Assembly (NCBI GenBank): GCA_016840385.1
Contig: JAEOSL010000064.1
Span: 1 to 20,485 of the forward strand
Length of the DNA: 20,485 bases
Reading direction: 5' to 3'
DNA from: Candidatus Thorarchaeota archaeon
GTDB taxonomy: Archaea; Asgardarchaeota; Thorarchaeia; Thorarchaeales; Thorarchaeaceae
Shown: piece by piece, positions 3,129 through 19,378 of the stretch
Numbering within the stretch: position 1 is the stretch's first letter
Layout: every line of letters begins with the position of its first letter
Made by a program: the position numbers and the translations under genes
The notes under the pieces: model-generated
Database searches by the model: none
The model's input: the letters and a program-made list of their open reading frames with translations, nothing else
What the model was told of the DNA's origin: nothing

Positions 3129-3584
3129 ATGTGGAAAATGTCAGATACGATTGATGACAAACAAATAGCCGAATTGCTCAAAGGTAAGACCATGAAGGTG
3201 TATGCATTACTTTTAACCCAGGATTCCATGAGGATGCGAGATATTCAACACACCCTAGGTTTCTCAAGTCCAAGCTTAGTCATCCATCATCTCACAAAAC
3301 TCATGGATGCGGATTTAGTCAAAAAAGATGCGCATGGAGATTATTCCATCAAGAAAGATGTGCGAGTGGGTTCTCTCACACTATTTGTTCAGGTGGGCAG
3401 ACACTTTCTACCTCGCTTTGTATTCCTGGCTTCTTTACTGATCTGTATCCTTGTGCCTTATGTGATGTTTTTCATGTCAATACCACCAGATGGGAAGGAC
3501 ATCCTATTCTTGACAGTGGTGCTATCTACGATAATTTTCCTGCTCTATGAAGCATACCGAATGTGGTTCCTAAATCCGATATAA
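3129..3584 (+). CDS. Membrane-anchored winged-helix (ArsR-like) transcription regulator
   Basis: The protein has 151 residues from ATG 3129; ATG 3138 is an equally good start. Residues about 12-77 form a winged helix: AELLKGKTMKVYALLLTQ, then MRMRDIQHTLGFSSPSLVIH as the helix-turn-helix, then HLTKLMDADLVKKDAHGDYS as the last helix and wing. Archaeal ArsR-type proteins have this pattern. Two membrane helices follow, about 96-118 and 124-141, joined by a short loop (IPPDGKD), so the DNA-binding domain faces the cytoplasm. It sits directly behind the exported protein and ends 28 bases before a strong hairpin. A transmembrane regulator controlled by its exported partner is the simplest reading. 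The targets are unknown. Confidence 0.75.
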   Translation: MWKMSDTIDDKQIAELLKGKTMKVYALLLTQDSMRMRDIQHTLGFSSPSLVIHHLTKLMDADLVKKDAHGDYSIKKDVRVGSLTLFVQVGRHFLPRFVFLASLLICILVPYVMFFMSIPPDGKDILFLTVVLSTIIFLLYEAYRMWFLNPI

Positions 3585-3611
3585 ACTAAGAATATAGATA
3601 ATTTGCTTAGG

Positions 3612-3645
3612 AGGAATTCAGTAGTGTTTCTCATACTGGATTCCT
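3612..3645 (+). terminator. Hairpin terminator after the two-gene sensor/regulator unit
   Basis: AGGAATTCAGTA (3612-3623) pairs with TACTGGATTCCT (3634-3645) over 12 positions, one of them a G-U pair, across a 10-base loop. The T-rich TTCTTCATTT follows. It sits 28 bases after the winged-helix stop codon. Confidence 0.55.
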
Positions 3646-3769
3646 TTCTTCATTTAAGTTGATTTCCTCTTCCAAAGGATTGCCCCGCTTCTGACAACTT
3701 GTCTTGCCTAAACAGAGTAACCCCATAGTTGAGCAACGCATCTACTGAGTCGGGTCAATAATTCCCAGA

Positions 3770-4198
3770 TTATACTTTCCATGTAGTGTTCAAGTTGATA
3801 TTTACCAATCTACTAGGTTTGTTTTCCCAGCTGCCTGTCCATTCTTTCGTGAATAATCCCTTGGATCGTTTCTTGACAGAAAGGAGCAACACATCCTTGC
3901 GTTTCAATAGGATGCTTCTATCAGATGTTCTGAAACTAATAGCACCTTCATTCTCATTTACCTTGTATCTTATATTCCACATGACTCCCTTGTTCTTTCC
4001 CAATCCTCTCTTGTCACGACTCACGACCACAACACACAGAACAATAAAAACACCCTCATGCCACTTTCCTTGGCATTTAGTTTTTTCACATTTCCATTCT
4101 GACTGACCTAATTGTATATTGACATCATACATAACGTTTCCACAATAAGCACATACGACGTTTCTTGACAAGCCATCATCCTTTGACACTATAATCAC
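3770..4198 (-). CDS. Small zinc-ribbon protein
   Basis: The protein has 142 residues from GTG 4196-4198. Near the N-terminus, VCAYCGNVMYDV (CxxC) and WKCEKTKC (CX4C, followed by a His two residues after GKW) look like the two knuckles of a zinc ribbon. A short hydrophobic strand-like segment (VFIVLCVVVVS) follows, then a basic, strand-rich part (YKVNENEGAISFRTSDRSIL, LKRKDVLLLSVKKR). A TATA-like ATATAAATTT on the minus strand near 4238-4247 gives a leader of about 18 bases and supports this start. I do not recognise the family. It may bind nucleic acid or protein. The adjacent gene is divergent. Confidence 0.6.
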   Translation of the reverse strand: MIIVSKDDGLSRNVVCAYCGNVMYDVNIQLGQSEWKCEKTKCQGKWHEGVFIVLCVVVVSRDKRGLGKNKGVMWNIRYKVNENEGAISFRTSDRSILLKRKDVLLLSVKKRSKGLFTKEWTGSWENKPSRLVNINLNTTWKV

Positions 4199-4348
4199 TC
4201 CACTCTAAACCCTAACGAAATCATTAGGTTAAGTCCATATAAATTTGCCAATGGTAGTTGAATTCAAACGTTCATGCACACATGTACTAACGTCTGTATC
4301 CAGAAATCATATCAGATTCCCTTTTCCAAATGATTTTGTGTGGTTAGA

Positions 4349-5002
4349 ATGATTGAAAGCGTCGAAAAGATCATCAATGGATTTGAACTGCTGATCTCTG
4401 ATTTGGAGAATGATATCTCGTGGTTCGAAAGTCAATTACCCCAATTCGAAGAGAATAGCTTTGCTTTTGTCCATAAACATGCTGTTGTTGCTCGTGACCA
4501 ACTGAGAAACTACAACGATTGGTCTGATGACATAATCATACAGATATTTGTTGAGTATCGAGAAAGATTGACGATGGTTGTGGTGTCGGCATTCATCTTC
4601 AGCCTTTCAGCTATTGAATACTCCCTGAAATCGTTTATCAGAAAATCAGTTGATGGGCCGCTAGTCGATTGGCTAAGTATGAGAAGAGAAAAGGCGGAGG
4701 AAGGAGGAAATGTTTTCAGGATGTATCTCAGGAGTATAATGATTGAGTCCGAAAAGAAACATCTGATAGACAAATCTAATCTCGACAGCTGGAAAGGTAT
4801 GATCGAACTAAGGAATGCTATCATGCACAACAATGCCATCTTTGATGAATATACTTCTTTCAAAATTGGTGATATGACTTTTGAAGCAGAAGCTGGAAAT
4901 ATGGTGAGGTATCCAATGAGCGACCGTCCCAAAATCATCAAAGTTCTTGTTTCACTAACCAGAAATTGGATTGAAGCTTATTTGAAGACGCACACAATCT
5001 AA
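4349..5002 (+). CDS. HEPN-domain protein, possible RNase of a defence or toxin type
   Basis: From ATG 4349 the protein is 217 residues (GTG 4340 is an alternative). It is almost entirely helical. An N-terminal helical pair (about 1-60) is followed by the segment MVVVSAFIFSLSAIEYSLKS, typical of the first long HEPN helix. Near residue 155 is ELRNAIMHNN, which matches the HEPN signature R-N-x3-H with acidic residues just before it. In known HEPN proteins the Arg and His form the RNase active site. This ELRNxIxHN form occurs in solitary HEPN proteins linked to abortive infection and stress. No nucleotidyltransferase (MNT) partner is adjacent, so it is not a classical HEPN/MNT toxin pair. Catalysis is inferred from the motif only. 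Confidence 0.65.
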   Translation: MIESVEKIINGFELLISDLENDISWFESQLPQFEENSFAFVHKHAVVARDQLRNYNDWSDDIIIQIFVEYRERLTMVVVSAFIFSLSAIEYSLKSFIRKSVDGPLVDWLSMRREKAEEGGNVFRMYLRSIMIESEKKHLIDKSNLDSWKGMIELRNAIMHNNAIFDEYTSFKIGDMTFEAEAGNMVRYPMSDRPKIIKVLVSLTRNWIEAYLKTHTI

Positions 5003-5584: not shown

Positions 5585-5817
5585 TTTTATACTTTTTCAG
5601 ATTTTGAAGATGGGGAGTTCTACGAATTGAATAGGAATCCCTATTTTTACAACCCACACGATTACGAAAATACAACTACCCCAACTGATCTAGAACCAAC
5701 CAGACAACAACACCGGAAATATACTGGCCAATAGCAATCAGCACAGCACTAATCTCAGGGACAGGAATTGTTATTGTATTCTATGCTGTAGTAAGATATC
5801 AGAACCGTAGGAGTTAG
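5585..5817 (+). pseudogene. Frameshifted C-terminal remnant of a family-5 solute-binding protein
   Basis: The first frame gives FSDFEDGEFYELNRNPYFYN and then a Thr-rich linker, matching FSDFEIGEYYRIERNPLFYY of the intact protein downstream. It stops at 5732-5734. A one-base shift near 5700 gives YWPIAISTALISGTGIVIVF, a membrane helix, then YAVVRYQNRRS and a stop at 5815-5817. The intact paralogue ends with the same layout: RNPxFY, Thr-rich linker, helix, Arg-rich end. The rest of the gene is missing upstream, where a minus-strand membrane-protein gene starts immediately. This is therefore a truncated, frameshifted duplicate. Confidence 0.75.
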
Positions 5818-5933: not shown

Positions 5934-7799
5934 TTGAGGAGTCGTCTTTATGCAACAGCTATGCTTGCAATAGTGGCTATAGTAATCAGCTCGTATTCGA
6001 ATGTTCTAATCGTTAGTTCATGGTCAGCATCGGATCCAATGCAAAGAGGACCATATGTTGATGAGGTTATCTTCAAGGTGATTGAAAACACAGATCAGAG
6101 GGCTCTTGCTCTTCAAGCTGGTGATATTGAAATTGCCTATGTTTTAAGTGACCGAGACCATCTCCAAATATTGGAGTCAGACCCAGATATCGACATATAC
6201 AGAGGCTCAAGAAACCATTACGGATTTATTACCATCAACTGTCGTGATTATCCATTAAATATCAGTGGTCTCCGACGAGCCTTTGCTTTTGCCTTTGACA
6301 AGACGAGAGCTGCCGAGGACCTCCTTGCCGGGGAGTCGATTGACCATGATTCGCTTGTCCCTCCAATAAGTGGTTGGTGTGTAGAGGATGAGTTTGAGTG
6401 GCACTACTATACAAACCAGTCAGATATCGGGAACCAACTTTTGGATGAACTTGGTTTCAATATTGACAGTACAACAGGATATCGTCTTGCACCAAACGGA
6501 GAAGAATTTGAAATTAGATTCTCTGATTATGGTTCGAGTTGGTCGTACAGAGTTGCCCGGATAGCAGTTGATGCTTTGCACTCCTTACACATTGATGCTT
6601 CTAGTGAATATCGCCAGGATTCATTCTTAGACCAACATGGAGAGTATGATATGGTCTACAATTTCAAGTATAACTATGATAATGACGTTGACTGGCTAGC
6701 TTACGAATATTGGTCTGAGTATGCTGATGAACCGTATCAGAACCCAACAAATTTTGCTAACGAAACATACGACAGCTGGCGAAACCAACTCCTCTACGGT
6801 GCAACCTACGAGGAAGTCCTTGAGGCTGCATCTGAGATGCAAAAAATCCTCCATTATAATGTACCACGATTAGTAGTCCATACAAGCATCTCCACCCAAG
6901 CATATAGGAACGATCAATTTGAGGGTCATGTTGAGGATCGTAGTAGACACATCTCAGGTCCTTGGACCTTGAGGAATATCCACAAAATTGACGGGACCTT
7001 TGGCGGCACGGTCCCAGTCGCACTGGTTCGTGAACCAGATTCATTCAATATTTTTGTCACAAATTCTCCATATTCCAAGACAATTCTTGAGAATCTTTGG
7101 CCTTCATTGTATGACTATGGACCTGATATGCAACCAGTTCCAAATCTAGCTGCAAGTATGGTGATTGAAACACATACCGATAATCCTAGTATCCCCGAAG
7201 GTCATAAAAGATACACCTTTGATATTATTCAGAATGCAACTTGGAGTGATGGAACACCACTAACTGCAGAGGATGTCGCATTTAGCTTCAACTATGATGT
7301 CGAGAGAATCTATAATGATACATTTGTTGCACCTTCATTTGTTGGAGAGATAGCTGCTGCTTATTCACCAACTCCATATCAAGCTGTAATCGAGTGTAAT
7401 ACTGAATCTTACTGGCACTTTAGCAATGTTGGATTTCACTACATTATACCAAAACATATGTTCAATAATGCTACAGGAATCGGATACGATGATTGGTTAG
7501 ATTGGAATCCATTCTTAGATCCGAGTGAACCATATACACACTGCGGTCCTTTCGTCTTCTCGGATTTTGAGATTGGAGAATACTACAGGATAGAGAGAAA
7601 TCCTCTTTTCTATTATTCCGCGGACCCGAGTGATAGTTCCACCACTACAACCAATACTACCACGAGCTTACCAAATACCACATCTCCATCAGATATCAAT
7701 TATGGTCCTTTAACGATTTGGCTAACAGCTGGGTTCACTGCAGCCATTCTGATAGTAACTGTCGAAATTTCTCGAAGGAGAACTGGTGCTCAGGACTAG
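5934..7799 (+). CDS. Family-5 (oligopeptide-type) ABC solute-binding protein with swapped halves
   Basis: The protein has 621 residues from TTG 5934 (AGGTG at 5922-5926). ATG 5961 is the alternative start. Residues 1-33 form a signal peptide. Residues 41-345 carry motifs that normally form the second half of SBP_bac_5 proteins: DEVIFKVIENTDQRALALQA, LRRAFAFAFDK, and near the end VPRLVVHTSISTQAYRNDQF. Residues 357-561 carry the normal first half: GGTVPVALVREPDSFNIF, then LENLWPSLYDY, WSDGTPLTAEDVAFSFNYD, IIPKHMF and CGPF...RNPLFYY. A Thr/Ser linker (566-586), membrane helix (592-610) and Arg-rich end anchor it outside the cell. It should bind peptides or similar solutes, but no permease or ATPase gene for import is in the window. 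The broken copy upstream ends at the same point, so the layout belongs to a small family. Confidence 0.85.
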   Translation: MRSRLYATAMLAIVAIVISSYSNVLIVSSWSASDPMQRGPYVDEVIFKVIENTDQRALALQAGDIEIAYVLSDRDHLQILESDPDIDIYRGSRNHYGFITINCRDYPLNISGLRRAFAFAFDKTRAAEDLLAGESIDHDSLVPPISGWCVEDEFEWHYYTNQSDIGNQLLDELGFNIDSTTGYRLAPNGEEFEIRFSDYGSSWSYRVARIAVDALHSLHIDASSEYRQDSFLDQHGEYDMVYNFKYNYDNDVDWLAYEYWSEYADEPYQNPTNFANETYDSWRNQLLYGATYEEVLEAASEMQKILHYNVPRLVVHTSISTQAYRNDQFEGHVEDRSRHISGPWTLRNIHKIDGTFGGTVPVALVREPDSFNIFVTNSPYSKTILENLWPSLYDYGPDMQPVPNLAASMVIETHTDNPSIPEGHKRYTFDIIQNATWSDGTPLTAEDVAFSFNYDVERIYNDTFVAPSFVGEIAAAYSPTPYQAVIECNTESYWHFSNVGFHYIIPKHMFNNATGIGYDDWLDWNPFLDPSEPYTHCGPFVFSDFEIGEYYRIERNPLFYYSADPSDSSTTTTNTTTSLPNTTSPSDINYGPLTIWLTAGFTAAILIVTVEISRRRTGAQD

Positions 7800-8518: not shown

Positions 8519-9331
8519 CTATGCCTCCACCTTCTTGAAGCGCATAATTGCAGACAAGATGAATACTACAACCATCACTGACATAACTCCGATAGTGAAC
8601 AGAACATCACCCAGCATCGGAGCAGTTTCTCCCCCACGGAGATACTGAGAAAACATGTATATTGGGTTCATGATCCACGAGATGACTCTTAGACTCGCGG
8701 ACGCAGACGAAAATATCAGAAGGCTGTACCATACCGCAACTCCACCAACTGCTGTAGCCATCGTTCGTTTCGTCACGATTGCTAACAGATTAATTGAGGT
8801 GATTACCAGAATTATCGCCAAGTAGAATATTCCGAAATAGCTTAAGAATGCTCCAATGTCAATGGCTGCTGGGACCATCAAGAATTGAGCCAAGAGAACT
8901 GACAACGTGGAGATACCTCCAATGATGAGGAGCGGTACAAGAATTCTCATCAATAGGAGATGTGTCCGTTCTACTGGATACGACAGCAAGGTTCGAAGTG
9001 AACCATCTTCGAAAGAACGTGCTGTGGTAAAAGCAACGATGAGTGGCATGATGAACATGATTACAACCCATAACTGTTCCAGACTGCTTACTAGAGTGGT
9101 CGTAGATATTGAATTCATAAACGAATTGAAATAATCTATCTGAGCAGTCCCATTCCATGTTGGTCCAGGCCTTATGTCAAAATTGAGCGAATAGGTTGCC
9201 CAGTTATATGTGGCAGAAAATGCAATGTAGAGGAAGAAGACTGTGATAAACTCAACAAGAGGAGAGCGATAGGAATGTCGGAATTCTAATCGTGTGACAT
9301 CTAACCATTCCCTTTTTCTTTTATTGCTCAT
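8519..9331 (-). CDS. ABC-2 type transporter permease
   Basis: The protein has 270 residues from ATG 9329-9331, preceded by AAGGAGAT. It has about six membrane helices: 27-47, 87-105, 130-153, 163-186, 195-215 and 240-262. The first extracellular loop is long (about 48-85). RSFEDGSLRTLLSYPVERTH after the second helix is the typical ABC-2 permease segment that contacts the ATPase, with the E-x-G-(S/T)-L pattern. The start overlaps the end of the ATPase gene by 11 bases. Together they form an exporter-type ABC system. The substrate cannot be read from sequence. Confidence 0.88.
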   Translation of the reverse strand: MSNKRKREWLDVTRLEFRHSYRSPLVEFITVFFLYIAFSATYNWATYSLNFDIRPGPTWNGTAQIDYFNSFMNSISTTTLVSSLEQLWVVIMFIMPLIVAFTTARSFEDGSLRTLLSYPVERTHLLLMRILVPLLIIGGISTLSVLLAQFLMVPAAIDIGAFLSYFGIFYLAIILVITSINLLAIVTKRTMATAVGGVAVWYSLLIFSSASASLRVISWIMNPIYMFSQYLRGGETAPMLGDVLFTIGVMSVMVVVFILSAIMRFKKVEA

Positions 9332-10244
9332 TTTTCATTATCTCCTTGTAAGCATCCTCAAGTGTATTGGCCTGCTCTATAGCATAGATGGTAATTCCAA
9401 GCTGCTGTGCCATTACATCCAGCTTCTCTTTCACAGAAGGGAGGGTAATATCCCTGACCGATATGGACACAGTGTTTGCTCCACTCACAACACAAGAGGT
9501 GATGAAGTCTGAAGATTGGATTATCTCGTAAAGCTGTTTCGGGTCCGAACAAAGGACTTTGAGAGATCGTTGTGTTCGTCTTTGAATAATGTCCCGCACA
9601 CTACCCTCTTCTATGACCTTACCCTCTTTGATGAAAGCAACATTATGGCAAGCTTTCTCTAGTTCAGATAGAATGTGTGAAGCTATGAAGAAAGACACTC
9701 CTAAGTCAAGATTCAGGTCTACAATGAGTTTGATAATCTCATCCCTTCCCACGACATCAAGATTCGAGGTAGGTTCGTCTAGGAACACGAGTTCAGGACT
9801 ACCAATCAACGCCTGTGCTATTCCTAAGCGCTGATACATACCTGCTGACAGATTCATGATCTTTCGGTCGTGCGCATCTTCGAGACCGACTGTTGCCAGT
9901 AACTCTTTCGGATCACTCTGACTTCTGTAGATCTGTTCTACACACTGTAAGTAATCCAATGTCGAAATTGTCGGTGAGAATGATGGTCGTTCATGCAATA
10001 CTCCAATCCGTCGACGAATGTCTAGACTGTGAGTGCGAACATCCATTCCCAAAACCTTTGCTTGTCCCGCATCTGCATGAATGAGTCCGAGCAATACACG
10101 AATGAGAGTGGTCTTCCCAGCACCATTTGGTCCAATGAGTCCAAAGATACCCGGTTCTATATCTAGGGTGAATTCTTTGAGTGCTTCGACCTTTCCAAAC
10201 TTCTTTGAGAGTTCAGATACAGAAACTACGCTGTCCGAGGACAT
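9321..10244 (-). CDS. ABC-2 type transporter ATP-binding protein
   Basis: The protein has 307 residues from ATG 10242-10244. GGAGGG 8-9 bases upstream fixes this start; the longer open frame to 10487 adds unrelated residues. Motifs in order: Walker A GPNGAGKTT (about 39-47), the ABC signature in degenerate form LSAGMYQRLGIAQALIG, Walker B LVFLDEPTSNLD, and the switch His in ASHILSE. The last roughly 90 residues form the C-terminal domain common to CcmA/BcrA-type ATPases (SLKVLCSDPKQLYEII onward). It powers the permease encoded next, and the genes overlap by 11 bases. A TATA-like sequence at 10288-10297 probably starts the operon. Confidence 0.92.
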   Translation of the reverse strand: MSSDSVVSVSELSKKFGKVEALKEFTLDIEPGIFGLIGPNGAGKTTLIRVLLGLIHADAGQAKVLGMDVRTHSLDIRRRIGVLHERPSFSPTISTLDYLQCVEQIYRSQSDPKELLATVGLEDAHDRKIMNLSAGMYQRLGIAQALIGSPELVFLDEPTSNLDVVGRDEIIKLIVDLNLDLGVSFFIASHILSELEKACHNVAFIKEGKVIEEGSVRDIIQRRTQRSLKVLCSDPKQLYEIIQSSDFITSCVVSGANTVSISVRDITLPSVKEKLDVMAQQLGITIYAIEQANTLEDAYKEIMKNEQ

Positions 10245-10287
10245 CAAACTACCCTCCACTTCTATTGTTTCACTGACATTCTTACTT

Positions 10288-10297
10288 AATATTATTG
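10288..10297 (-). promoter_or_regulatory. TATA-like box for the ABC operon
   Basis: On the minus strand AATAATATTA lies about 45 bases before ATG 10244, with the A-rich TTTTGAAATC just before it as a possible TFB-recognition element. Confidence 0.35.
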
Positions 10298-10410
10298 ATT
10301 TCAAAATGATTGAGGATGTTGTCCATTGGAATCGCTTGGTTGAGGTTCTTCTACTACTATACACCCTGACATCAGATTGCAGTTTCCAGTCTTGGAAGAG
10401 GATAAGATAG

Positions 10411-10899
10411 TCAGAAATCAAAATCGTGAGATCCAACCTGCATCTTGCTGGATAAGACCTCTCCTTTCCATGGTCCTCGTATCTCAATCAGATTCAAGAT
10501 TCTATATCCCTTTTTCATGAGGAATGCGATAATAGCATCATTGTTAGGATTAATCCAGTGATAGACAGTATCTCCACCAAGACTTTTTGCTAGACTCTCA
10601 GCCTTGGTGTGCAGCTTTGATGCTATACCTTTACGTCGGTAGGTCGGAGCCACATAGAGAGATTCAGCCCATACTACATCTTCGTCAACACGACATATTA
10701 GATATCCAGAAATTGTTCGAGCGTCAGTAGCTACGAATATTGGAAATTCCTTGTCAAGATAAGCATGCAGTTCTTCCTTTGCAGATACAAGATCTGGTTT
10801 CACCTCAAGCGTCTTTAGCTTTGACAGCTCAATCCTGAACTCTGCTATATATTGTATGACCTGCTGTTCATCCTTGACATCATAGTTTCTTATCTCCAT
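10411..10899 (-). CDS. GNAT family N-acetyltransferase
   Basis: The protein has 162 residues from ATG 10897-10899, with AGGAGA about 9 bases upstream. GNAT landmarks are clear. There is an N-terminal strand-helix (MEIRNYDVKDEQQVIQYIAE), then ISGYLICRVDEDVVWAESLY as strands 3-4. VAPTYRRKGIASKLHTKAE is the acetyl-CoA pyrophosphate-binding loop and helix (R/Q-x-x-G-x-G/A type). Near the end, WINPNNDAIIAFLMKKGYRI is the usual N-x-x-A-x-x-(F/L)-x-x-x-G-(Y/F) segment. The acyl acceptor is unknown. It lies on the same strand upstream of the ABC ATPase, but a 166-base gap with its own promoter-like sequence suggests separate transcription. Confidence 0.85.
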   Translation of the reverse strand: MEIRNYDVKDEQQVIQYIAEFRIELSKLKTLEVKPDLVSAKEELHAYLDKEFPIFVATDARTISGYLICRVDEDVVWAESLYVAPTYRRKGIASKLHTKAESLAKSLGGDTVYHWINPNNDAIIAFLMKKGYRILNLIEIRGPWKGEVLSSKMQVGSHDFDF

Positions 10900-12461: not shown

Positions 12462-12572
12462 TTAGTTATTCATCTAACCGGATTCTAATCATAACAACAA
12501 AGAAATACATAGATTGTGGATACTATACCTAAACTCTCAACTCTACTTAGTTGTCCAGTAGGAGGAATTACT

Positions 12573-12887
12573 TTGGGCCATAAAGACTACATAATTGATG
12601 AAGATGGATACTATCGCTTCCCAAATTCTGGAATGCTGGTGCATAGGTGGGTCGCTGAAAAGCATGTGGTTGGACGTAAGCTATATCCTGGGGAGGTTGT
12701 CCATCATAGAAATGGCAACAAGCGCGACAACCGATCCGAGAATCTTGAGGTCATGACATGGGAGCAGCATGAGGCTCATCACAAACGGTATAGTATAGTC
12801 AAGAACATTAAGACTGTTGGAAAAATAGTGGGAAGCCTTCTAGGTGTTAAGACAAAGAAACGACGCAGGAAGAAGAAGTGGTTCTAG
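12573..12887 (+). CDS. HNH_3-type endonuclease with basic tail
   Basis: From TTG 12573 the protein is 104 residues. I chose this start because GGAGG lies at 12560-12564, 8 bases before it, while GTG 12516 has no ribosome site. MGHKDYIIDEDGYYRF leads into MLVHRWVAEKHVVGRKLYPG, then EVVHHRNGNKRDNRSENLEV and MTWEQHEAHH. These are the landmarks of HNH_3 nucleases common in phages and as free-standing homing-type enzymes: VHH for metal binding and catalysis, the conserved N-x-x-x-N-L, and a closing His cluster. The tail is KTKKRRRKKKWF, strongly basic. It is probably a DNA-nicking mobile endonuclease. Its target and partner are not visible. Confidence 0.8.
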   Translation: MGHKDYIIDEDGYYRFPNSGMLVHRWVAEKHVVGRKLYPGEVVHHRNGNKRDNRSENLEVMTWEQHEAHHKRYSIVKNIKTVGKIVGSLLGVKTKKRRRKKKWF

Positions 12888-13706: not shown

Positions 13707-13721
13707 TTGTGTGCAATCAAC
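13702..13721. repeat. Perfect hairpin at the DUF2178-ATPase junction
   Basis: GTTGATTG (13702-13709) and CAATCAAC (13714-13721) are a perfect 8-base inverted repeat around TGTG. It includes the stop codon of the membrane protein and ends 19 bases before the ABC ATPase start. There is no T run, so a transcript-stability, attenuation or protein-binding role is more likely than simple termination. Confidence 0.5.
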
Positions 13722-13740
13722 ATCAAGATTACAGGAGAGA

Positions 13741-14517
13741 ATGTGTGTGACCAGTAGAAAGATCGAAATCAAGACCAAAGGACTCTCCAAGTCATTTGGG
13801 AGTGTTGTCGCACTCGACAACCTTGATCTAGAATTAACCACAGCCAGTAGATTCGGATATATTGGACCTAACGGAGCCGGGAAGACTACTACTGTACGAA
13901 TACTATCAGGACTGCTGAAACCGACAAGTGGTGACGCAAAGGTCTGTGGTTTTGACATTCATAGAGAGAGAGACAGGATAAAAGCTGAGACAGGCCTGTT
14001 GCCTGAAACCCCAGGGCTCTACTCGAAGTTGTCTGCTGTGGAGTTCCTCGAGTTTATAGGTGCTCTGTATCATATGAGCGAAGATGTCTTGGACTCTCGA
14101 ATCGATAGACTCCTCTCTATATTGGGACTAGAGGGACGACGGGATGACCTGTTAGAATCATATTCATCTGGGATGAAACAGAAAGTTCTCGTGGCCTCCA
14201 CGCTCATTCATGAACCCAGATTGGTATTTCTCGATGAACCAACCTCTCGTCTTGACCCAGCAGTCAGTGCTCTGGTCAAGGATTTGATTTTGGCTCTCGC
14301 TGAGGAGACTGAAACGACGTTCTTCATTTGCACGCACATGATTGATTTTGCTGAGGATGTGTGTGACATCATTGGAATACTCAACGAGGGCCGGTTGGTG
14401 GCTCTGGGCTCTCCCGAACAGATTGTAAGTGACTCGGGTGCTGAGGACCTTGAGGAAGCGTATCTCAAGATTATTGGTGGTAAAATTGACAGAAAGAAGC
14501 TCCTTGATTGGAGGTGA
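13741..14517 (+). CDS. ABC transporter ATP-binding protein (CcmA/BcrA type)
   Basis: The protein has 258 residues from ATG 13741. GTG 13747 fits the AGGAGAG ribosome site slightly better, and the frame upstream (to 13711) is unsupported. Motifs in order: Walker A GPNGAGKTTT, Q-loop region with TGLLPETPGLYSKLSAVEF, signature YSSGMKQKVLVASTLI, Walker B LVFLDEPTSRLDP, switch His in ICTHMIDFAEDVC. The C-terminal domain of BcrA-type ATPases is short here. It is the motor for the permease encoded next, whose ribosome site lies in this gene's stop region. The XRE/DUF2178 pair directly upstream, on the same strand, likely controls it. Confidence 0.93.
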   Translation: MCVTSRKIEIKTKGLSKSFGSVVALDNLDLELTTASRFGYIGPNGAGKTTTVRILSGLLKPTSGDAKVCGFDIHRERDRIKAETGLLPETPGLYSKLSAVEFLEFIGALYHMSEDVLDSRIDRLLSILGLEGRRDDLLESYSSGMKQKVLVASTLIHEPRLVFLDEPTSRLDPAVSALVKDLILALAEETETTFFICTHMIDFAEDVCDIIGILNEGRLVALGSPEQIVSDSGAEDLEEAYLKIIGGKIDRKKLLDWR

Positions 14518-14522
14518 GAGAG

Positions 14523-16181
14523 TTGGCTCGACATTGGTTGGTCATAGCTAAGGTAGAGTTTCTAGTGTGGAGTTCTAGATTCAAGAGTAGGAGAGCTCCA
14601 ATCTTCGCAGGCATTATCCTGACTGGATTCCTCTGGGCATTCTATGTGGTCCCAGAAATTTGGAGATTCGTTATCAGCGGTAACCTGTTCATCAATTCTC
14701 TGTTGATGGTTGCATTACCGGAACTCATTCGCATCGCCATGCTGCTCTTGTGGATGCTTGTCTTGATCTATCCTATTCTGTACGCTCTTCAGCAGATCAA
14801 GATAGGCCAGTGGGAGATAATCCTCAGTTGTGATGTTTCCACGAAGTCTCTGCTGGTGGGGACGTTCGTGGGAAAGATACCCAGTTATGGACTGATGGTG
14901 TTGTTTCTCGCACCAGTACTGATGTCGCCATTCATACTTGCCTATGAAGTGGCTCTTCTAGGTCAGATACTAATGTATTGTTCAATCCTACTGGTTTCAT
15001 TGTCGACTCTGTGGATATCCAACTTCGTGTCACTCGCAGTCCAGGCAAAGATTGGTGAATCGAAACGTGCAGAGGATCTGGGAAAGGCACTCTCAATGGC
15101 TATTGGATTGATCGCGGGACTACCAATCTACGGGCTGGTCTACTTCGCTGGACCTCTGACAGGCATTCTCGGGATGAATGTATTTCTTCTCTTCCCGTTC
15201 ACATGGGGTGCTGACATGACATCATGGGCGGCAATCCTGTTCAGTTCGAAAGTCACCCCAGAGATGCTCCCCCTCTTCGAGACCGTTCTTGGTTTTAACT
15301 TCTTAACTGATGTGCTATTACTATCGCTATTCACACTGCTTTTCGTGGGTGTTGCGTTTCGAGCAGCAGACAGAGTATTCACCTTCAGACTGGGAGTGAG
15401 TACTGAAACAGTCACGACCATTGTCCGGGAGAATGTTGTGGTCCGCGGGATTAGAAGGCTCTTCCCAGGACCTTTCGGTGTTCTGGTGGTCACGAGTCTC
15501 AAAGACTTCTTCCGGAAGGCTGAGAATCTTTCAAGACTCGGTTTTGTTGTGATGATGGCGACTGTCATGCCAGTTGTGATGAATCTCTCATCACCAGCCC
15601 CACCGATTGATGATCCGACTTTTCGAGTGATGATACCAATGATTTCAGTAGCGATCATGCTCATGGTTGTGGGAACAATGACTTTTGGTGGAACGGGCTT
15701 CATTGAGAGCAAGGACCACCTCTGGATCATAAGAAGTGCACCACACGGTTCGGTTGAGTTTGTAGAGGCGAAGCTTGTCAGTTTCTTCATCTCAGCTGCT
15801 CCCTTGGCTTTGATTCCCTCCGTTATAGTAGGGCTGCTGATGGGTCTTGAAGTCATGTCCATCTTCCTGATGTTCACATATTGCTATTGTCTATTATGCT
15901 GTTCAATCATGGTGTCAATCGGTGTAGTAGCAGCCAATCCTACCTTTGAAACCACAAGATCCCGCTCGTACATCTTAAACAGTCTCGCAACCGGACTCAT
16001 CATCTTGGGTGCAATAATATCCGCCCTGCTTCTTGGATTCTTGTATTTCGGACCAACATTGTTGGAAGGTTTAGGCTTTTTGGGAAGTATTGTGTTGCTC
16101 ACGGTCACACCTCTGGTGATAATCGGGCCCCTCCTAAGCTGGCTGGGTGCTAGGCGTCTGGGGCGTCCTAGCGAGTCATAA
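14523..16181 (+). CDS. Large ABC-type exporter permease, about 12 membrane helices
   Basis: The protein has 552 residues from TTG 14523, which follows GGAGGTGA at a good distance; TTG 14508 would overlap the ATPase more. The N-terminal half has about six or seven helices, from PIFAGIILTGFLWAFYVVPE to FLTDVLLLSLFTLLFVGVAF. A cytoplasmic segment follows (about 285-335, RENVVVRGIRRLFPGPFG). The second half has five or six more helices, ending SWLGARRLGRPSES. The two-halved layout matches ABC-2 related permeases that act with a single ATPase type. The substrate is unknown. The last 123 bases, including the stop codon, occur again at 19099-19221. Confidence 0.88.
   Translation: MARHWLVIAKVEFLVWSSRFKSRRAPIFAGIILTGFLWAFYVVPEIWRFVISGNLFINSLLMVALPELIRIAMLLLWMLVLIYPILYALQQIKIGQWEIILSCDVSTKSLLVGTFVGKIPSYGLMVLFLAPVLMSPFILAYEVALLGQILMYCSILLVSLSTLWISNFVSLAVQAKIGESKRAEDLGKALSMAIGLIAGLPIYGLVYFAGPLTGILGMNVFLLFPFTWGADMTSWAAILFSSKVTPEMLPLFETVLGFNFLTDVLLLSLFTLLFVGVAFRAADRVFTFRLGVSTETVTTIVRENVVVRGIRRLFPGPFGVLVVTSLKDFFRKAENLSRLGFVVMMATVMPVVMNLSSPAPPIDDPTFRVMIPMISVAIMLMVVGTMTFGGTGFIESKDHLWIIRSAPHGSVEFVEAKLVSFFISAAPLALIPSVIVGLLMGLEVMSIFLMFTYCYCLLCCSIMVSIGVVAANPTFETTRSRSYILNSLATGLIILGAIISALLLGFLYFGPTLLEGLGFLGSIVLLTVTPLVIIGPLLSWLGARRLGRPSES
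16059..16181 (+). repeat. 123-bp repeat, copy 1 (3' end of permease)
   Basis: These bases, TTGTTGGAAGG through the TAA, are repeated in the same orientation at 19099-19221 with 4 differences by my count, all within about 12 bases near 16122-16132. Similarity stops right after the stop codon. Confidence 0.9.
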
Positions 16182-16429
16182 TTGGTGACCTCAGATTGAT
16201 GAAGATGCAACTGACATCATCTAAAGATATAATCAATGTCAGAACCGTTATGTACTGAATTATGAGATTTTACTATGTGGTTAGTGGGAGTGTTATTCGA
16301 TCTATTTTCATTAAAATGATGAAAGTAAGCTAGGGTTGGGAAAACCAAAGAGTTTCTAATCTCTCCAAGATTGAAGATTGCAAAGGGATTTAACCTCGTA
16401 AAGTTTCTTATAATTTAGGGAGAATTTCG

Positions 16430-19098: not shown

Positions 19099-19221
19099 TT
19101 GTTGGAAGGTTTAGGCTTTTTGGGAAGTATTGTGTTGCTCACGGTCACACCTCTGGTGATAGTCGGAACTCTCCTAAGCTGGCTGGGTGCTAGGCGTCTG
19201 GGGCGTCCTAGCGAGTCATAA
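19099..19221 (+). repeat. 123-bp repeat, copy 2 (orphan 3' end of a permease gene)
   Basis: This copy reads LLEGLGFLGSIVLLTVTPL, then VIVGTLLSWLGARRLGRPSE, S and TAA in the plus frame. Against copy 1 two residues change (I to V, P to T). It sits on the plus strand about 40 bases before the start of a minus-strand gene, with no coding sequence before it. It is a stray gene end, probably inserted or left over from a paralogous permease. Open frames crossing it on the minus strand are artefacts. Confidence 0.9.
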
Positions 19222-19378
19222 CTGAGTGGAAAGGTTGGATGAGAGTTGACACATAACAAAAGAAATACATTGATTGGTCGTCTATTGGGCAGAGTTATTC
19301 TATGAAAAAGTGTGGCTCTAGTCCAGAGAGTAGCCCCAATTTTGTTTTATCCATGATTGTTGCCCGTAAGAAGCAATA

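Follow-up and report, generated by a model that had tools for sequence, protein, structure and literature searches.

Circular permutation of a family-5 solute-binding protein from Thorarchaeota and its rotated relatives in Asgard archaea and Bacillota

Thorarchaeota are a little-cultured group of Asgard archaea near the origin of eukaryotes. A stretch of 20,485 nucleotides from one of their genomes (Candidatus Thorarchaeota archaeon, assembly GCA_016840385.1, contig JAEOSL010000064.1), here called the window, carries a gene for a solute-binding protein (SBP) of family 5 whose halves, according to a first-pass annotation, follow each other in the reverse of the usual order, the second half (residues 41-345) preceding the first (357-561). 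The locus thus raises the questions of whether this order is real and what such a receptor might do in a neighbourhood that had been described as devoid of importer genes. In the following, the usual family-5 chain is designated A-B-C, that of the window protein B-C-A, and the third cyclic order C-A-B.

Segment order of the window protein

The gene, its parts and an adjacent relic are located in the window as follows:

5934..7799, + strand: gene for a B-C-A family-5 solute-binding protein of 621 amino acids (Pfam match, segment order, structure model)
5934..6023, + strand: hydrophobic N-terminus, signal peptide or anchor, residues about 1-30 (predicted helix 2-22)
6051..6494, + strand: segment B, the canonical middle part, residues 40-187 (segment matches, Pfam)
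6510..6968, + strand: segment C, the canonical C-terminal part, residues 193-345
6969..7004, + strand: new junction, residues 346-357, at which the canonical N-terminus follows on the canonical C-terminus (interval left between the matches to segments C and A)
7005..7616, + strand: segment A, the canonical N-terminal part, residues 358-561 (segment matches; phmmer against AppA)
7629..7703, + strand: Ser/Thr-rich stalk, residues 566-590 (translation; pLDDT <50 at 569-594)
7704..7793, + strand: C-terminal membrane anchor, residues 591-620 (predicted helix 591-620)
5588..5814, + strand: frameshifted relic of another B-C-A gene, comprising its 3' end with stalk and anchor (tblastn)

With respect to family membership, the window protein scores 146.5 bits against SBP_bac_5 (PF00496), above the curated cut-off of 32.4, with residues 38-262 corresponding to profile positions 144-363. 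A phmmer comparison with PDB sequences aligns residues 357-560 to residues 21-208 of AppA, and segments B and C of the structure model match solved family-5 structures, the structural matches listed being family-5-type chains. High profile positions therefore come first, which rules out the normal profile order and bears out the reversed succession of the halves. The structure model is confident; its sequential TM-score against AppA (1xoc), from a superposition that follows chain order, is about 0.38. The best NCBIfam model, NF045467 (Opp4A), reaches only 79.7 bits and stays far under its cut-off of 650. While the protein is thus homologous to AppA, DppA, OppA and NikA over all three segments, its order is B-C-A and not A-B-C, and it is therefore classed as a homologous but permuted branch, not as an ordinary family-5 member. 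Because one Pfam name spans all orders, automatic annotation overlooks the rotation.

Segment A ends in an RNPLFYY motif, the point at which the chain is cut, and, unlike in canonical A-B-C proteins, the termini and the tether exit at the loop after this RNPxFY motif. As the first-pass annotation had proposed, segment order and model place the predicted chain exit after segment A, with stalk and anchor next. Helices predicted at both ends of the structure model would supply an export signal and a surface tether, pLDDT being low at residues 23-32. Judged by a simple hydropathy window and not by a dedicated predictor, a C-terminal hydrophobic segment is present in 116 of the best 120 of 813 homologs (query included), and the N-terminus is hydrophobic in all seven array paralogs of the public Thorarchaeota stretch L061.

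The 813 homologs were found at an E-value of 0.001 or better in a search of 5.8 billion proteins with the window protein as query; two of them (P0002, P0003) are 77-78% identical to it, and all of the best 120, query included, have the order B-C-A. Seven consecutive B-C-A genes lie in L061 and five in L001, a shorter stretch of the same contig, and every copy of the L061 array has an N-terminal hydrophobic segment, the order B-C-A, a C-terminal hydrophobic segment and its own stop. That the permutation is only apparent, the gene being a piece of a longer tandem SBP or the product of a frameshift or of chimeric assembly, is practically excluded, for although tandem arrays and the neighbouring relic make recombination between copies plausible in principle, the order is constant in loci from many separate genomes, the array copies are each complete and dN is below dS in all three gene pairs compared. 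The window gene is a real circularly permuted family-5 SBP gene.

Distribution and origin of the rotated orders

A match to the window protein was found in 84 of 195 sampled Asgard genomes, with a best E-value of 1e-50 or below in 44; weak matches may be canonical, and segment order confirms B-C-A in six further weak-match genomes (G029, G037, G050, G125, G131, G177). As match lists cover the best matches, most counts are lower bounds. By hand count of complete genes, partial ones being left out, three Thorarchaeota genomes contain 24 B-C-A genes (10, 6 and 8) as compared to 4 canonical ones. Thorarchaeota accordingly have a large and diversified receptor repertoire, with some members fused to proteases.

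Rotations were surveyed in Asgard archaea and in Bacillota, the phylum of Brevibacillus genome G196, of which 149 genomes were sampled. Among the matches listed, a B-C-A profile matches across the C-A junction in at least 8 of these 149 genomes, and all ten loci fetched from the eight carry a B-C-A gene. With one such protein as query 391 proteins were obtained, the best 120 comprising 113 B-C-A proteins and 7 fragments, and their source names include Limnochordia, Clostridia and Synergistales. The bacterial proteins mostly have no C-terminal anchor, a hydrophobic tail being seen in 5 of the 113, in contrast to the 116 of 120 listed homologs of the window protein. As a control, all 32 family-5 matches in two Bacillota genomes have their first profile position at 1-8 and continue forward, in the normal order. 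The B-C-A order is thus found beyond Archaea.

The second rotation emerged among the homologs of a canonical Thorarchaeota SBP (L063), of which 120 were listed: 97 are A-B-C, 21 are C-A-B and 2 are fragments. The chain of the 21 C-A-B proteins, which lie within P0200-P0237, starts at about canonical residue 380 and stops at about 379; C-A-B loci from Asgard archaea and Bacillota are L065-L068, L107-L110 and L153-L159. In a model of P0206 (28 sequences; pLDDT 87.6, pTM 0.81) residues 200-553 align to canonical residues 1 to about 350, which complements the result for B-C-A. In Bacillota, all seven suspected loci fetched with a C-A-B profile are C-A-B, in at least 4 of the 149 genomes, and the control locus L160 is A-B-C. 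By eye, a lipobox-like cysteine follows the signal in five of the seven, and OppB- and OppC-like genes adjoin six. The presence of both rotations in Bacillota rules out a family confined to Asgard archaea. In another protein, that of L116, segment A starts only at residue 235 and segment C was not detected; it may be a further C-A-B protein.

In the main C-A-B group, the canonical membrane-helix tail is still matched in 8 of 8 printed examples (6-15 bits) and the canonical signal peptide, very weakly, in 4 of 8 (0-3 bits), the domain between signal and tail being the rotated part; the more distant L107-L110 have neither match. The main group could thus be explained by an internal duplication with consecutive loss of the outer parts. 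All mapped Asgard C-A-B groups break near canonical residue 380 (ends 378-381), the second match of L110 extending to residue 389, and this common break may mean that the site is permissive or that an old event was later followed by reversals.

In a 66-row tree of canonically reordered sequences from Asgard archaea and a few others, the B-C-A proteins form one clade (98/97). With bacteria added, all of them still fall on one side of a branch, with values of 78/89 in a 70-row tree, for which the bootstrap had not settled, and of 90/81 in a 59-row tree, from which 19 of the 70 rows had been removed as long branches or near copies and to which 8 had been added; a single B-C-A clade including bacteria thus has modest support. 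The 59-row tree requires at least five changes for C-A-B and at least six for the three orders together, gains and reversals being inseparable in these counts, and a single origin of C-A-B is unsupported as such. The trees rest on a hand-picked subset of the proteins found and omit those without all three segments (e.g., L011, L012, L115, L116 and L125, and in the 70-row tree L144 and L146). The occurrence of two different rotations in archaea and bacteria suggests that the family-5 fold has been rotated more than once in evolution.

Importer operons of rotated receptors

Both canonical family-5 SBPs and relatives of the window protein occur in operons of the OppBCDF type. In Thorarchaeota genome G001 (L047) three successive permease-type genes are followed by a B-C-A gene, and two ATPase genes of the oligopeptide type are divergent from this run. 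When one permease of this operon was used as query, a gene starting with B-C was next downstream on the same strand at 15 of 30 loci, the query's own locus included and 1.5 kb downstream covered; at 8 of the other 15 (genomes G005, G015, G039, G052, G077, G083, G086 and G173) a relative of the window SBP lies 2-10 kb downstream on the same strand, and at the remaining 7 no SBP relative was seen downstream among the matches listed. Of note, two adjacent OppB-type permeases of this Thorarchaeota operon (L047:2225-3286 and 3404-4465, both on the - strand) are 93% identical to each other. At 8 of 10 B-C-A loci of Bacillota, two multi-helix ORFs plus another two ORFs follow downstream on the same strand, identified in L128 as profile relatives of OppB, OppC, OppD and OppF; in L130 and L131 no such permease/ATPase run was seen.

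Some members of the B-C-A family thus lie directly beside genes for OppB/OppC-type permeases and oligopeptide ATPases, and the earlier proposal of a receptor type that is not an importer subunit finds no support at the level of the family, in Asgard archaea or in Bacillota. Most complete copies in the three Thorarchaeota genomes (22 of 24) are nevertheless orphans, a permease match within 10 kb on the contig having been found for only 2 of 24 (G001:C123 and G003:C264), which is a lower bound as the contigs are short.

The OppC proteins of the B-C-A type have a gap of approximately 200-260 residues between their first two predicted helices in all 11 cases examined, i.e., eight bacterial ones in B-C-A operons, that of L047 beside the B-C-A gene, and those of the Asgard contigs L051 and L062, for which no SBP is shown. 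Examples are:

L047:4644-6203, - strand: OppC with large loop
L128:7497-8969, + strand: OppC with large loop

The loop is possibly a docking adaptation. Between bacterial and Asgard loops no sequence similarity was detectable. An enlarged loop may not be specific to rotated SBPs: one of four OppC proteins linked to A-B-C genes (L053) also has a large loop, of about 185 residues, and the OppC relatives beside Bacillota C-A-B genes are ordinary in five of six cases (290-316 aa; the sixth has 382).

In an operon with the order SBP-OppB-OppC-OppD-OppF, the SBP is A-B-C in L054, L150 and L152 and C-A-B in L147, L148, L149 and L151. Compared to L054, OppB, OppD and OppF of the four C-A-B operons are 67-74% and OppC 51-56% identical; the partners in L150 and L152, the latter stretch ending inside OppD, are closer to L054 (OppB 83-90%, OppD 85-96%). 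Judged by best matches within a reference set of 15 proteins from three operons, the A-B-C and C-A-B operons are apparently orthologous, so that the rotation seems to have been accepted without a change of partners and function seems to survive it. The SBP gene of L151 is broken by a stop in its 5' part. The shared slot amounts to a natural experiment, through which it can be tested directly what SBP topology and tethering contribute. As both rotations occur in what appear to be full importer operons, a shift of the termini is evidently tolerated, or even exploited, in docking and delivery.

Taken jointly, these data would allow for a reading to which we give about even chances: family-5 SBPs would be topologically switchable, with a fold that can be cut and rejoined at two loops to yield all three cyclic orders; several switches would have taken place across Bacteria and Archaea, one of them within an orthologous operon slot with the same partners; B-C-A would form one deep clade that has its own importer operons and expanded massively in Thorarchaeota; and rotation would have been selected for moving the tether point, thereby placing stalks, lipid anchors or a surface protease at another site of the receptor.

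Role of the window gene and relation to known systems

In line with the first-pass annotation, there is no importer gene within the 20-kb window, and a scan of nine of its proteins revealed no importer permease; an adjacent permease, as expected for the SBP of an OppBCDF-type importer, is seen for some relatives but not for the window gene. The window does contain two pairs of ABC ATPase and membrane-protein genes (8519-10487 on the - strand and 13711-16181 on the + strand), the ATPases at 9321-10487 and 13711-14517 lying beside an ABC-2-type membrane protein, which scores just above the ABC2_membrane_2 cut-off, and an unassigned one, respectively. Both pairs thus look like exporters and not like partners of the SBP.

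The window gene probably encodes an orphan, membrane-anchored, permuted oligopeptide receptor whose importer is encoded elsewhere, a reading in which we have good confidence. The N-terminal signal would direct export of the SBP, and the Ser/Thr stalk and helix, leaving the fold after segment A, would hold it to the membrane; the clam-shell receptor would close on a short peptide and pass it on to an ABC importer of the OppBCDF type whose genes lie elsewhere in the genome, as one among many paralogous receptors on a common importer. What has been computed is the permutation and its conservation, a structure model of good confidence, the tandem arrays and, for some relatives, a linkage to permeases. 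We infer a peptide ligand, a shared importer for this orphan copy and a benefit of the moved tether. The simplest reading is a diversified receptor out of a large repertoire, with a shared importer, comparable to the Pseudomonas aeruginosa proteins DppA1-A5, several SBPs with different preferences that share the one importer DppBCDF (PMC4206461). This system is bacterial and its sharing demonstrated, whereas for the window SBP sharing would follow by analogy; permutation is not mentioned in the abstract of that source.

A link to peptides is also suggested by relatives of more than 2000 residues, all four of which, as examined, carry a subtilase domain behind the rotated SBP (2299-2568 aa as covered, L056 and L058 being truncated by the stretch ends):

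L055:181-7080, - strand: SBP-subtilase fusion
L056:1-7531, - strand: SBP-subtilase fusion
L057:873-8414, - strand: SBP-subtilase fusion
L058:1-7705, - strand: SBP-subtilase fusion

Their Asp, His and Ser motifs are present and look intact by eye, the first motif pattern having found the His motif only, and all four also match Ig- or PKD-like domains, some of them weakly. Such fusions suggest that the surface is where peptides are both cleaved and captured, and a peptide would accordingly be the likely ligand of the window protein as well.

These fusions to subtilase and Ig-like stalks also fit an alternative, according to which the orphan B-C-A proteins act at the surface as receptors or scavengers and take no part in transport, being engaged in sensing, adhesion or the holding of peptides for a surface protease, and only their operon-linked cousins are importer subunits. 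The excess of orphans over permease-linked copies and the window's lack of an importer also fit this alternative. However, linked copies (G001:C123, G167:C5, G145:C93, G003:C264, G074:C194) are 52-59% identical to the window protein, and the use of several SBPs by a shared importer is documented, so far as the available part of that source goes (PMC4206461); we therefore regard a role without transport as unlikely.

Considerably less probable still is that the window copy is in decay and retains little of its function. The relic lies 120 bp upstream of the gene, its best pair of pieces matching the C-terminal approximately 80 residues of P0073 (E 1.3e-15; tblastn with P0001-P0120), and between the window gene and its counterpart in L001 dN is 0.162 and dS 0.413, in comparison to a dN of 0.176 with a dS of 1.48 and a dN of 0.188 with a dS of 1.16 in two other pairs. 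With a sister-gene relic adjacent and constraint weaker than in these pairs, the window gene could be relaxing. However, its ORF is full-length, relatives as close as P0002 and P0003 exist, and dN is still below dS. The receptor with an importer encoded elsewhere thus remains the preferred reading.

A permuted SBP as such is already known. TpMglB-2 of Treponema pallidum is a naturally circularly permuted sugar SBP, for which the class "Type Ic/Cluster Bc" was proposed, and its authors raised tethering as a factor that might favour such an altered topology (PMC4990184). In the available part of that report, TpMglB-2 resembles the window protein in being a permuted, tethered SBP, and its gene is clustered with probable ABC transporter genes; it differs in its sugar-binding Type I/Cluster B fold and in having one rotation, which alters the strand order of the N lobe alone. 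The present case concerns family 5, two different cut points, both Archaea and Bacteria, and orphan arrays. Full-text searches with permutation terms, preprints lying outside their scope, returned no report of permuted family-5 SBPs among the matches listed, and the available parts of PMC7683729 and PMC9123169 contain nothing on them. Among PDB sequences, none of the 42 best stretches fits well across the junction of rotated profile A1, and none of the best 60 of 104 fits that of profile A2 well, apart from an 18-residue overhang in 6ofq. The permutation is therefore called new as a family-5 variant, which is of relevance since SBPs are classified by strand order and by the pattern of their crossovers.

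Closer inspection of the remainder of the window finally reveals a direct repeat of 126 nt, 96% identical, with copies at 16059-16184 and 19099-19224 that are 3040 bases apart, the first of which forms the 3' end of the membrane-protein gene at 14508-16181 and the second of which lies farther on. By eye, two ORFs on the + strand (1112-1717 and 12516-12887) resemble HNH-endonuclease-type proteins, and a short ORF on the - strand (1807-2097) has an Ig-type-like domain followed by a membrane helix and may be what is left of a larger surface protein.
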